From Costertonia aggregata (GTDB lineage Bacteria; Bacteroidota; Bacteroidia; Flavobacteriales; Flavobacteriaceae), in the NCBI RefSeq assembly GCF_013402795.1, contig NZ_CP058595.1:717501-781500 (forward strand): a stretch of DNA of 64,000 nt, read 5' to 3'. The notes under the pieces were generated by a model. The model made no database searches, was not told where the DNA came from, and saw nothing but the letters and a program-made list of their open reading frames with translations. Below, piece by piece: positions 19,821 to 59,530 of this stretch; the stretch's first letter is position 1; every line of letters begins with the position of its first letter. A program made the translations under genes and the position numbers.

Positions 19821-19850
19821 AAAAAAAAAGCCCCGTTTTTCACGAGACTT
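19821..19850 (-). terminator. attenuator terminator of the Phe/Tyr operon
   Basis: On the minus strand, AAGTCTCG (19850-19843) pairs with CGGGGCTT (19835-19828), with two G-T wobbles, and is followed by nine T (19829-19821). It lies between the leader peptide and pheA, about 60 bases before the pheA start. The same AGTCTCG strand can pair instead with CGGGGCT at 19888-19882, inside the end of the leader peptide, giving a mutually exclusive antiterminator. Confidence 0.8.
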
Positions 19851-19874
19851 CAATTGTTATATTTTTAGCATATA

Positions 19875-19946
19875 CTACAACAGCCCCGTACTTCTCTTAA
19901 AAAAGAAGTAGAAGTAAAAACCGTTCCAGAAATATTGCTTTGTCAT
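19875..19946 (-). CDS. aromatic leader peptide controlling the Phe/Tyr operon
   Basis: A 23-codon open frame from ATG at 19946 to TAG at 19875, upstream of pheA. Residues 5-16 read YFWNGFYFYFFF: six Phe, three Tyr and one Trp in twelve codons. The last codons before the stop (ACG GGG CTG) contain the CGGGGCT sequence that can pair with the 5' arm of the downstream terminator. This is the arrangement expected for ribosome-mediated attenuation. A ribosome stalled on Phe/Tyr codons leaves that segment free to form the antiterminator; a ribosome reaching the stop covers it and the terminator forms. A weak Bacteroidota -7-like box (TAAAATTTG, one base too long) at 20000-19992 could start the transcript. 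Confidence 0.85.
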   Translation of the reverse strand: MTKQYFWNGFYFYFFFKRSTGLL

Positions 19947-29581: not shown

Positions 29582-32500
29582 TCAACTCTCAACTATATTC
29601 GGTGCCAGCCATTTCATAGCGTCTTCCAGGGCTATTCCTTTTCGTTCGGCATAATCTTTTACTTGATCTTCTTCTATTTTACCCAATCCGAAATAACGGG
29701 CTTTGGGGTTGGCAAAATAATAACCTGAAACCGAAGCTGCCGGCCACATGGCCAAACTCTCGGTTAATTTTACGCCTATTTTTTCTTCCACTCCGAGAAT
29801 TTCCCAAATGGTCAATTTCTCCAAATGATCGGGACAAGCAGGATAACCTGGTGCTGGGCGAATTCCCTTATACGACTCGTTGATCAATTCTTCATTGCTT
29901 AAATCTTCGTTCGCTGCATAACCCCAATATTTTGTCCGCACTTCCTTATGCAAGTATTCGGCAAAAGCTTCGGCCAAACGATCGGCTAGGGCTTTTATCA
30001 TTATCGAACTGTAATCATCCAAATCTTTTTCGTAAGCTGCCGCTAATTCAGCAGTTCCAAATCCGGTTGATACACAAAAACAACCGATATAGTCTTGTTT
30101 GCCCGAATCTTTGGGAGCGATAAAATCGGCCAAGGCATAGTCGGGTATCCCCTCTCTACGTTGCAATTGTTGGCGAAGGGTACGGAAAGCCCCCCCCGCC
30201 CCCAAAGGGGAAGCTAACAACCGATCGTGTATCTGCTCTAGTACCTCTTCGAGATTACCTAAAACTTCGTTGTTCGTAAAACGAATTACACGATAGCCTT
30301 GCTCTTCGAGCCATGCCGTTCGTTCTTCATCGCTTTTTTTGTTCTCTGGCAATTGGTGGATGCTACCATCGATCTCAACGATCAAATTTTGTTTGAGACA
30401 AACAAAGTCGGCAATGAATTCGCCAATAATATGTTGACGGCGAAACTTATATCCATCTAAATTCTTGCCACTCAAGGCATTCCAAAGCATTTCTTCCGCT
30501 TCGGTAGGTCGATTACGCATGTTTTTAGCGTGCTCTTTCAGTAATCCGTAGAGCATAGGGTTTGCCGTCGCCCAATATTGCTCCCCCTTTGGGGGCGGGG
30601 GGGCTACTTCAATGTCATCATCATTGACAGTGTTGGCCGGAAACAAGCCAAAAATTCCTTTGGCCTGTAACTGTTTTTCCTGCAACACTTTTTTCAACAT
30701 GGCTTGGGCATCTTCGAACAACTCGGTCGCTTGAGCACCCACCACATTATCGGTCAAAATATCAGGATATTTTCCGTGGAGTTCCCAGCTTCTGAAAAAA
30801 GGTGTCCAGTCAATAAAATCAACCAGTTTTTCCAAATCGAGATTTTCAATTATTTGAATACCGAGTTCGTTAGGTTCCTTAATTTGAGCTGAGTCCCAAT
30901 CTATCTTGAATTTATTTTTCCGAGCTTCCTCTATGGATTTATATTCTTTTTTAACGGAACGTTTCAAGAATTTATCCCGAAACACATCGTAATCTTCCTT
31001 AATGGATTTTTTATAAGCGTCCGAGGTTTCTTTTTGTAGCAAGTCGCCGACCACGGTAACCGCACGTGAAGCATCATTGACATGAACGACGGCTTGGCTG
31101 TATTGAGGGTCAATTTTAACGGCCGTATGTGCCTTACTGGTGGTGGCCCCTCCTATCAATAACGGAACCTTAAAGTTCTGGCGTTCCATTTCTTTGGCAA
31201 GGTGCACCATTTCATCAAGGGATGGCGTAATCAATCCGCTTAGGCCGATGACATCTACATTATGTTCTATGGCCGATGCGATAATTTTTTCAGGCGGTAC
31301 CATCACGCCCAAATCGACGATTTCATAATTATTGCAAGCTAGCACTACGCTCACGATGTTTTTGCCAATATCGTGAACATCTCCCTTAACAGTGGCCATT
31401 AAAATTTTTCCAGCTCCAGCCCCCCCCGCCCCCAAAGGGGGAGCTATTAACTGGGCATGAATTTTTTCTAAAACCGCTTCTAGGTTGGTCAACACCTCAT
31501 TATTAGTAAAACGAATAACCTTATATCCTTGTTCTTCGAGCCAGGCTGTTCGTTCTTCATCAATCTTTCTATTCTCAGGTAGTTGATGAATGCTACCATC
31601 AATCTCGACAATCAAGTTCTGTTTTAGGCAAACAAAGTCTGTAATGAATTCGCCGATAATATGTTGACGACGAAACTTATATCCATCCAAATTCTTACCG
31701 CTCAAGGCATTCCAAAGCATTTTTTCCGCTTCGGTAGGCCGGTTACGCATTTTTCTAGCGTGCTCTTTCAGTAATCCATAGAGAACAGGATTTGCCGTCT
31801 TCCAATGAAGCTCCCCCTTTGGGGGTTGGGGGGCTGATTTTTTTTTCTCCTCTTCTATATATGGAAGAAGATACGCCACCGCCTTTTTCATTACCCTTGC
31901 CGATTTTACCACTTGGGGCAAAAACATTTTTCCGCTTCCGAAAAGGTCGCCAACGACGTTCATTCCCGTCATCAGATGGCCTTCGATAACCTCAATGGGT
32001 TTGGCGGAAGCTTTTCTCGCTTCTTCTACATCTTCTACAATATATTGGTCGATGCCCTTTACCAAAGCTCTGGTAATTCTATCTTGAAGCGGTGCTGATC
32101 GCCACGATAGATCGACCTTGCTTTCCTTGGCTTTTCCTACCACCGATTCGGCGAAATCCAACAATCTCTCAGTGGCATCGTCACGGCGGTTGAGCATCAC
32201 GTCTTCGACACGTTCCAATAAATCTTTCGGAATATCGTCATACACTTCCAACATCGTCGGGTTGACAATGCCCATGTTCATTCCCGCTCTAATGGCATGA
32301 TATAAAAAAACGGAATGCATTGCTTCCCGCACGGGATTATTCCCTCGGAAAGAAAAAGAAATATTGCTAACTCCCCCGCTCACACTGCAATGCGGTAGGT
32401 TTTCACGCACCCATTTTGTTGCATTTATGAAATCAAGCGCATTCAGTTTGTGCTCGTCCATTCCTGTAGCGACCGGAAAAATATTGAGGTCAAAAATGAT

Positions 32501-33061
32501 ATCTTCAGGAGGGAAACCTACTCTATTGACCAGAATGTTATACGAACGTTTCGAAATTTCGATTCGCCTGTCATAATTATCGGCTTGACCGACCTCATCA
32601 AAGGCCATAACTATAACCGCAGCTCCATATCTCTTTATGAGTTTCGCATGACGGATAAATTCATCTTCACCTTCTTTAAGACTTATAGAATTGACCACGC
32701 ATTTGCCTTGCACGACTTGAAGTCCGGCCTCAATAATTTCCCATTTTGAACTATCGATCATAATGGGCACTCGAGCAATATCGGGTTCGGCAATGACTAG
32801 ATTTAAAAACTTGACCATGGCCTCTTTGCCATCGATCAAGCCGTCATCCATATTGATATCGATGATTTGGGCGCCTCCTTCGACCTGATGGCGTGCGACA
32901 TCAAGTGCTTCCTCGAATTTTTCCTCCTTAATAAGTCTGAGAAATTTTTTGGACCCGGCCACGTTGGTACGTTCCCCCACATTGATGAAATTACTTTCTG
33001 GGGTGACCACAAGAGGTTCCAGTCCAGATAATTTCAAATATTTCGGTTTTGCTTCAATCAT
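29582..33061 (-). CDS. metH: methionine synthase, cobalamin-dependent, large subunit (pterin, B12 and activation domains) with two in-frame DUF559 inserts
   Basis: A 1159-residue protein; without the two inserts it would be about 880, the usual size of the second half of a split MetH. The pterin-binding domain (about 20-280) starts [16 protein letters not shown]. The cap of the B12 region (about 310-405) is followed by insert 1 (about 409-548). The cobalamin domain contains [14 protein letters not shown] (B12-ligand His in DxHxxG). The activation domain follows with [12 protein letters not shown], then insert 2 (about 819-958), FRTLRQQ and [15 protein letters not shown]. It transfers methyl from methyl-THF via cobalamin to homocysteine, whose binding domain is on the separate upstream gene. 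Both inserts lie between or at the edge of domains and keep the frame. The stop codon lies in a GTTGAGAGTTGATGG repeat. Confidence 0.93.
30188..30605 (-). mobile_element. in-frame DUF559 insertion element, copy 2 (in MetH activation domain)
   Basis: The sequence between the outermost matched bases is 418 bp. The ends are imperfect inverted repeats: AGC, seven C, G, five C, AAA, GGGG A AGCT at 30188-30215, and GCT, five C, TTT, five G, C, seven G, CT at 30580-30605. The interior encodes about 115 residues of a DUF559/very-short-patch-repair-like nuclease domain: [51 protein letters not shown] and [12 protein letters not shown]. The likely catalytic Asp (DFVC) and Glu/Asp (EIDG) are intact. The element has no stop in this frame, so the host protein is read through, and the inverted repeats are translated as PPPPKGE and PLGAGGA. 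It separates DDDIEV from FRTLRQQ of MetH. Confidence 0.85.
31418..31835 (-). mobile_element. in-frame DUF559 insertion element, copy 1 (before MetH cobalamin domain)
   Basis: This has the same size (418 bp between outermost matched bases), orientation, reading frame and structure as the copy at 30188-30605. The inverted ends are at 31418-31445 and 31809-31835 and differ only at a CG/AA position and in homopolymer length. The encoded domain is nearly the same: [38 protein letters not shown] and [13 protein letters not shown]. It differs by scattered substitutions, so the copies are not a very recent duplication. It sits between IEEEKKKSA and [16 protein letters not shown], exactly at the linker preceding the B12 domain. 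No target duplication is obvious. Confidence 0.85.
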
Positions 33062-34066: not shown

Positions 34067-34145
34067 AACAATATCTACAAATCAATGAATTCGTAAATGA
34101 AAATTATCAAGTAAGGAAAAGTGTTGACGACCTGTCATTTCTTTT

Positions 34146-34261
34146 GTTATCTGCCGAGATGCTGAAACTAAATCAGCACACGATAGAATGTAGCACCTTC
34201 TTTAAAGATAAAGGGTTGCTAAGGCTTCATCGGGTCCAATCCCTCCACCTTTCTTGATAAC
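34146..34261 (-). promoter_or_regulatory. SAM-I (S-box) riboswitch of the metH-metF unit
   Basis: On the minus strand the S-box core is complete. P1 is GTTATC (34261-34256) paired with GATAAC (34151-34146). Between them are AAGAAAGGTGGAGGGA, GATGAAGCC, TAGCAACC and AAGGTGCTA, the conserved blocks of the class. It lies upstream of metH1. I see no clear intrinsic terminator between the aptamer and the ATG, so control may act on translation start. Confidence 0.93.
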
Positions 34262-34344
34262 GATTTCAATGTATTAATGAACTGGGTACAAAGAAACGGT
34301 AGAGTAGAATGAAAAGCAAGAAAACTGGATTTTTTTATATCTTA

Positions 34345-52561: not shown

Positions 52562-52704
52562 GTTATCCTTCCCAATGGTCGGTATTTACCGCCAAGAAAT
52601 CCTGAATTTACTTCAGGACAGGGTAGAATTTAGCACCTTCTTTGTATGGAACAAAGGGTTGCTAAGGCTTCAAAGGGTCTAATCCCTCCACCTTTCTTGA
52701 TAAC
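52562..52704 (-). promoter_or_regulatory. SAM-I (S-box) riboswitch of metY
   Basis: On the minus strand P1 is GTTATC (52704-52699) with GATAAC (52567-52562). The blocks AAGAAAGGTGGAGGGA, TTTGAAGCC, TAGCAACC and AAGGTGCTA are in order, followed by an extra hairpin (TCCTGAAG...TTCAGGA-like) and GGTAAATACC. A second GATAAC followed by TTTTTTT lies about 30 bases further down and could compete for the P1 5' strand, a possible expression platform. Confidence 0.92.
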
Positions 52705-52955
52705 TATTCAATATATGTTTGAACTTTATACAGCACAAATTAAAGTCAGAAAGTTTTAAAAACCTAATGATTCGCGTAAATTTCAAAAAAACCTAATGTT
52801 TTGATGGTATAAATTAAAAATACCCTCTAGTAGGTTTCTAGAAAGAAACTAAACGAACTTGTAGTTATATTTGTTAAGATTTAGATACATAGTTACTAGT
52901 GATTATATATAATTGTTACCATTTATTTTGAAAATTCAGTTCAGAGTCAACTTTT

Positions 52956-59360: not shown

Positions 59361-59447
59361 TCTTAGGTTTTAATTCTGGAAGATTTGACGTAATACCTTA
59401 AAGTAGCTTACTTCTCTGAAGAGATTCCAAATTACGTTTGGAACAAA

Positions 59448-59519
59448 CTGCTTTAGCATTTTTCTTGTGCCAAACTTAGTTTGGCATCCGAGGTTGCAAT
59501 CAGTCAAATCCTTCCTCTA
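59448..59519 (-). promoter_or_regulatory. SAM-II-type riboswitch upstream of metK
   Basis: On the minus strand a P1 stem GAGG/CCTC (59517-59514, 59493-59490) encloses AAGGATTTGACTGATTGCAA. The tail AAAAATGCTAAAGCAG (59463-59448) follows, matching the layout of SAM-II: loop with GATTT and TTGCAA, then an A-rich segment ending in GCTAAA that forms the pseudoknot. An extra perfect hairpin GCCAAAC/GTTTGGC (59475-59469, 59485-59479) sits in between, as in some SAM-II variants. No terminator is visible before metK; control is probably at translation start, about 90 bases downstream. Confidence 0.7.
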
Positions 59520-59530
59520 GTTTGATATGG

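Follow-up and report, generated by a model that had tools for sequence, protein, structure and literature searches.

A probable ribosome-mediated attenuator with a mixed Phe/Tyr leader peptide upstream of the pheA operon in Costertonia aggregata and other Bacteroidia

The pheA-tyrA locus and its leader

The window analysed here, a stretch of 64,000 nt from Costertonia aggregata (contig NZ_CP058595.1, positions 717,501 to 781,500), carries an operon for aromatic amino acid synthesis on its minus strand, preceded by a short ORF, by RNA segments that can pair in alternative ways and by a promoter-like element. The features are as follows, in window coordinates:

19995-19966, minus strand: promoter-like element, TTTG (19995-19992), an 18-nt spacer and TACTTTAG (19973-19966)
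19946-19875, minus strand: leader ORF of 23 codons, ATG at 19946, stop TAG at 19877-19875; putative control codons 5-7 and 10-16
19925-19879, minus strand: strand 1:2 hairpin of the MFE fold, AACGGUUUU (19925-19917) with GGGGCUGUU (19887-19879), plus an inner ACUUCU/AGAAGU pairing
19889-19882, minus strand: strand 2, predicted 5' arm of the antiterminator, ACGGGGCU, within codons 20-22 and nearly identical to strand 4
19850-19842, minus strand: strand 3, AAGUCUCGU, common to antiterminator and terminator
19836-19828 and 19829-19821, minus strand: strand 4, ACGGGGCUU (19836-19828), and a nine-T tract (19829-19821); intrinsic terminator from the terminator scan
19763-18936, minus strand: pheA, prephenate dehydratase (Pfam PF00800, PDT, 4.3e-58; weak ACT match)
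18939-17794, minus strand: class I/II aminotransferase (PF00155, 3.7e-56)
17708-16842, minus strand: tyrA, prephenate dehydrogenase (PF02153 and PF20463)
16842-15760, minus strand: DAHP synthase fused to chorismate mutase (PF00793 and PF01817)

The leader ORF encodes the peptide MTKQYFWNGFYFYFFFKRSTGLL and is separated from the downstream pheA ORF by a gap of 111 nt. Its segment from Y5 to F16, YFWNGFYFYFFF, contains 10 aromatics in 12 residues (three Tyr, six Phe and one Trp), so that the ORF is enriched in codons for Phe and Tyr, the products of the downstream operon. Elsewhere in the window, the maximum is 7 aromatics or fewer per 12 residues (634 ORFs of 12-45 codons, both strands). An earlier reading of the letters alone (hereafter, the sequence-only reading) had described a 23-codon peptide with 10 aromatics in 12, which checking of the sequence and coordinates showed to be right, and the strand that it left unstated is the minus strand. 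It had also correctly pointed out that the 5' arm of the terminator is complementary to the CGGGGCT within the last leader codons, located at 19888-19882. The unit is nonetheless larger than it had been described, as it also includes the conserved upstream promoter-like element and a third, competing hairpin within the ORF.

The promoter-like element resembles TTTG / TAnnTTTG, the -33/-7 promoter consensus of Bacteroidota. A TTG-like box together with a TAnnTTnG-like box, the latter ending 15-19 nt before the leader ATG, was found in 58 of 78 relatives, and a score of at least 8 of 9 was reached in 45% of the relatives vs 5% of shuffles. This position would imply a very short 5' UTR of the leader transcript. 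Transcription starting downstream of the peptide, the situation that the sequence-only reading considered fatal to its proposal, is unlikely because this conserved, predicted promoter lies upstream of the ORF.

Conservation of the leader in close relatives

The closest relatives were represented by 80 loci obtained from a PheA protein search, covering Maribacter, Arenibacter, Flagellimonas/Muricauda, Zobellia, Cellulophaga, Muriicola and others. An aromatic leader ORF lies upstream of pheA in all 80, starting with GTG in one of them (L077), and the aminotransferase gene adjoins pheA downstream in all 80 as well. In an alignment of 68 leader sequences, F12 and F14 are Phe in every row, codons 6, 10 and 12 vary between TTT and TTC, and codon 7 is always aromatic (Trp in 50, Tyr in 11 and Phe in 7). 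The comparison with sister species proposed in the sequence-only reading shows that both the peptide and the stems are conserved, with compensatory changes in the alignment, and this conservation extends far beyond the sister species.

The Asn codon AAC at 19925-19923, located within the aromatic run, is an additional conserved position: Asn is present in 68/68 near leaders and is seen again in many of the distant leaders. This conservation may be explained in the near relatives by pairing with the GUU that follows strand 2, an explanation that does not obviously extend elsewhere.

Mutually exclusive helices in the leader RNA

The terminator scan recovered one intrinsic terminator between the leader ORF and pheA (19850-19828, followed by the T tract; 0.4 expected in shuffles) and no second terminator-like site in the 500-nt region scanned around the leader. 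Strand 3 can pair either with strand 2 (2:3) or with strand 4 (3:4), and the two helices are mutually exclusive. Both were evaluated in the 68-sequence alignment, in which the relatedness of the sequences weakens all structure counts and the shuffle counts are not probabilities: the 3:4 terminator has 98.5% of cells paired and two-sided changes in 7/9 pairs, and the 2:3 antiterminator has 96.8% of cells paired and two-sided changes in 4/7 pairs, with 0/500 shuffles as good in either case. Covariation in this alignment appears to support the terminator strongly and the antiterminator more weakly, since the two-sided changes of the latter are found in 5 cells only.

The third helix, 1:2, is a candidate pause or protector hairpin between codons 8-14 and strand 2; it has 93.8% of cells paired in the same alignment, and its covariation does not exceed that of shuffles. 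After this negative result, synonymous codons 2-17 were randomised in 63 leaders. The native synonymous codons stabilise the leader RNA, with z below zero in 98% of the 63 leaders (median -1.85, window -3.15), and Asn is encoded by AAC in 85% of leader codons vs 39% in pheA. Because synonymous randomisation destabilises the leader RNA and AAC is preferred, this codon bias suggests a selection consistent with the 1:2 hairpin.

It could be argued that a T-rich intergenic region readily yields Phe-rich frames and that the terminator belongs to something else. Indeed, the region is AT-rich and contains a T run. Nevertheless, dinucleotide shuffling of the 372-nt intergenic region (2000 shuffles) never gave more than 8 aromatics per 12 residues, let alone the 10 observed, the leader is conserved in every one of the 80 near loci and the terminator covaries. 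We therefore regard a chance origin as refuted.

Simulated ribosome stalling and the proposed mechanism

The effect of a stalled ribosome was simulated on transcripts ending after strand 3, with the 3' edge of the ribosome set 12 nt beyond the first base of the A site. For stalls at A-site codons 5-16, the median P(2:3) was ~1; it dropped to 0.72 for codon 17 and was 0 for codon 18 and later ones. In silico, a ribosome held at any of the aromatic codons (5-16) leaves strand 2 exposed, and one at the stop codon covers it. From these values, the aromatic run ends in the model at the last position from which a stall can still clearly open the switch. On transcripts that carry no ribosome and lack strand 4, the leader of the window prefers 1:2, and 75% of the 68 aligned leaders prefer 2:3.

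At equilibrium with strand 4 included, codons 11-13 were the only stall positions for which the antiterminator was favoured. Such folding was a poor test of the stall codon, as the terminator wins most stalls once all strands exist, and truncated transcripts were used instead. Since the terminator wins at equilibrium for stalls outside codons 11-13, the switch would have to be kinetic for these stalls, as in classical attenuators. The stall simulation lends support, at the level of modelling, to the attenuation geometry claimed in the sequence-only reading.

Taken together, this element is very probably a ribosome-mediated transcription attenuator of a Phe/Tyr operon, of the classical trp/phe/his type. 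Transcription would start just upstream of the leader ORF, and a ribosome would translate the leader while RNA polymerase makes the remaining leader RNA. When charging of tRNA-Phe or tRNA-Tyr (or of tRNA-Trp, through codon 7) falls short, the ribosome would slow as one of codons 5-16 occupies the A site, and strand 2 would stay free to pair with strand 3 while strand 4 has yet to be transcribed. Once 2:3 has formed, the polymerase would continue into the pheA, aminotransferase, tyrA and DAHP synthase genes. When the aromatic tRNAs are charged, the ribosome would reach the stop codon and cover strand 2, allowing 3:4 to form and ending transcription at the T tract. Such a response to amino acids is what we infer from the arrangement of codons and helices.

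Distribution across Bacteroidia

Aromatic leaders were found in 19/20 Flavobacteriaceae genomes of further genera and in all seven Flavobacteriaceae sampled later (L141, L156-L161). In other Flavobacteriales families, the leader is present in f2, f3, f8 (2/3) and f14, where it is shorter. It is absent from the single f11 genome sampled and from f4, where PheA is divergent. No convincing aromatic leader was found before pheA in six f15 genomes of ~0.6 Mb (L105, L142-L146); a TTG-start ORF in L142 was regarded as AT-rich noise. These six symbiont-like Flavobacteriales genomes, all from one family, keep pheA, and tyrA was checked in one of them (G169). The distribution looks as if attenuation had been lost with genome reduction in this family. 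In other Bacteroidia orders, the leader was found in ~14/24 upstream regions, and outside the class in 1/9 (L132).

A class-wide screen with a uniform procedure yielded 32 terminator-bearing leaders. In 31/32 of them, the distance from the last aromatic codon to the start of strand 2 is 7-17 nt, and 24/32 do better than shuffles when taken individually (p<0.05); a Fisher combination over the 32 leaders assumes their independence. Phe and Tyr are both present in 32/32, and Trp also occurs in 14. In distant leaders the peptide sequence differs, and aromatic density and geometry are kept.

These patterns bear on two other ways of explaining the element. The first is a ligand-binding riboswitch, or a terminator bound by a protein, with the ORF being incidental; riboswitch-type attenuators likewise combine an intrinsic terminator and a competing helix. 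However, the Phe and Tyr codons are kept despite synonymous third-base changes, the peptide varies across the class while its aromatic density is retained, the helix keeps its position with respect to the last aromatic codon, and no Rfam riboswitch matches the leader site, which makes this explanation very unlikely. The second is an arrest peptide, whose nascent chain would stall the ribosome on free Phe or Tyr rather than through codon starvation. As might be expected of such a peptide, its conservation among near relatives is strong and includes positions 8 and 21-23, but the conserved N8 and G21-L22 fall within RNA strands 1 and 2, where pairing can explain them. Across families, moreover, aromatic density alone is kept, without any specific arrest motif, and a ligand-induced arrest would have the wrong sign for the control of a biosynthetic operon. 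We consider an arrest peptide extremely unlikely.

Amino acids probably read by the leader

Within the attenuation model, the sequence-only reading had proposed that Phe is sensed together with Tyr, and this proposal is supported by the content of the operon, by the Phe/Tyr mix of all class-wide leaders and by the location of tyrA, which was within ~3 kb of pheA in 16 of the leader-bearing genomes that were checked and far from it in two others (G188, G213). From these comparisons, the attenuator most likely reads the charging of Phe and Tyr tRNAs together, and possibly that of Trp.

The leader could instead sense Phe only, with Tyr and Trp codons tolerated because they fit the RNA pairing or differ little from Phe codons. 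Phe codons are indeed the commonest (6/10 in the leader of the window), and F12 and F14 never change, in contrast to the Tyr positions, of which codon 11 can be Phe, Thr, Ser or Asn and codon 13 can be Phe; the two genomes with a distant tyrA would also fit. Yet Tyr is kept in 64/68 near leaders at codon 5 and in 63/68 at codon 13, it occurs in every class-wide leader, often as many times as Phe, and its codons occupy positions where a simulated stall frees strand 2. Together with the presence of tyrA in the neighbourhood of pheA in most genomes checked, these observations render sensing of Phe alone unlikely.

A broader version of joint sensing can be proposed more tentatively, as a possibility that we hold somewhat less likely than its converse. 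A single leader would act as an OR gate, in which too little charged tRNA for any one of Phe, Tyr and Trp would open the operon; this gate would be ancestral in the aromatic synthesis of Bacteroidia and would have been lost in the symbionts with reduced genomes and in f4 (divergent PheA; the only such family sampled).

Comparison with known attenuators

In E. coli, pheL is a Phe-rich leader peptide before pheA, in which a 2:3 antiterminator competes with a 3:4 terminator and the position of the ribosome is the switch. That leader is Phe-only, and Tyr is handled by a separate repressor. Codons for more than one amino acid are known from the ilvGMEDA and thr leaders. The element described here has in common with pheL (Rfam RF01859) the aromatic leader peptide before pheA, the alternative 2:3 and 3:4 helices and the proposed switch by ribosome position. 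It differs in that the leader also carries Tyr (and often Trp) codons, the operon adds tyrA, the aminotransferase and DAHP synthase/chorismate mutase, and the host belongs to another phylum. With Trp_leader (RF00513), ilvGMEDA and thr leaders it would have ribosome-mediated attenuation in common, and the amino acids differ.

At gathering thresholds, Rfam has no match at the leader site. In a search with loose thresholds, the best E-value was that of Phe_leader RF01859 (22.9 bits vs a gathering score of 55, E 0.14), followed by Trp_leader RF00513 (18.2 bits vs a cutoff of 41). As the best sub-threshold matches are both attenuators, they were counted in favour of the attenuator reading. The leader very probably works like pheL/trpL, yet it falls outside those Rfam families.

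In Flavobacterium psychrophilum, passages of a 2021 study report an unnamed structured 5' element before pheA, without an Rfam hit and conserved in other Flavobacteriaceae and, separately, strong clues to leader-peptide attenuation before amino-acid operons (PMC9723704). Judging from these passages, that element is very likely the same as the leader described here; the main-text passages mention no peptide, control codons, alternative helices or spread beyond the family. In Bacteroides thetaiotaomicron, leader-like short ORFs are mentioned in general terms in passages of another study (PMC7366714). In the open-access literature, the F. psychrophilum remark is the only one that we found on a mixed Phe/Tyr leader or a Phe attenuator of Bacteroidota, and no description was found there of the peptide, its Phe/Tyr mix or its class-wide spread. 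The mechanism is ordinary; what is new is the class-wide conservation, the mixed aromatic code, the absence from Rfam and the characterisation of the leader as a family.

Little has been documented of how Bacteroidota regulate amino-acid synthesis, and this leader offers a concrete and testable cis-element with defined control codons, extending from Flavobacteriaceae to other orders. Unlike the arrangement in E. coli, one leader would be able to serve a joint Phe/Tyr operon.

Other elements in the genome and the window

Simple density tests in the same genome retrieved no leaders upstream of hisG, ilvD and two homoserine-dehydrogenase genes. Upstream of trpE, a short ORF, MKIRNTNTWWWNNSRQIS, contains three tandem Trp codons (L163, G000:C1:537161-540598, locus 1332-1387) and is followed by a strong hairpin, TAAGGCTTGTCATCACGACAAGCCTTA, and a weak T tract. 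This ORF and hairpin constitute a candidate Trp leader.

Within the window, the ORF of the B12-dependent methionine synthase (29582-33061) contains two in-frame insertions of ~410 bp on the minus strand (30188-30605 and 31418-31836), which are ~81% identical over 300 nt, each encode a DUF559 (PF04480) endonuclease-like domain and are flanked by ~25-nt inverted repeats (AGCTCCCCCTTTGGGGG...). Elsewhere in the genome, a leucyl-tRNA synthetase gene holds a third in-frame copy of DUF559, with 50% identity (L170). From their sequences, these insertions look like a mobile in-frame endonuclease ORF. Finally, two SAM-I riboswitches and one SAM-II riboswitch are located on the minus strand of the window (34144-34263, 52583-52706 and 59443-59523), preceding genes for a homocysteine methyltransferase, a Cys/Met PLP enzyme and S-adenosylmethionine synthetase.
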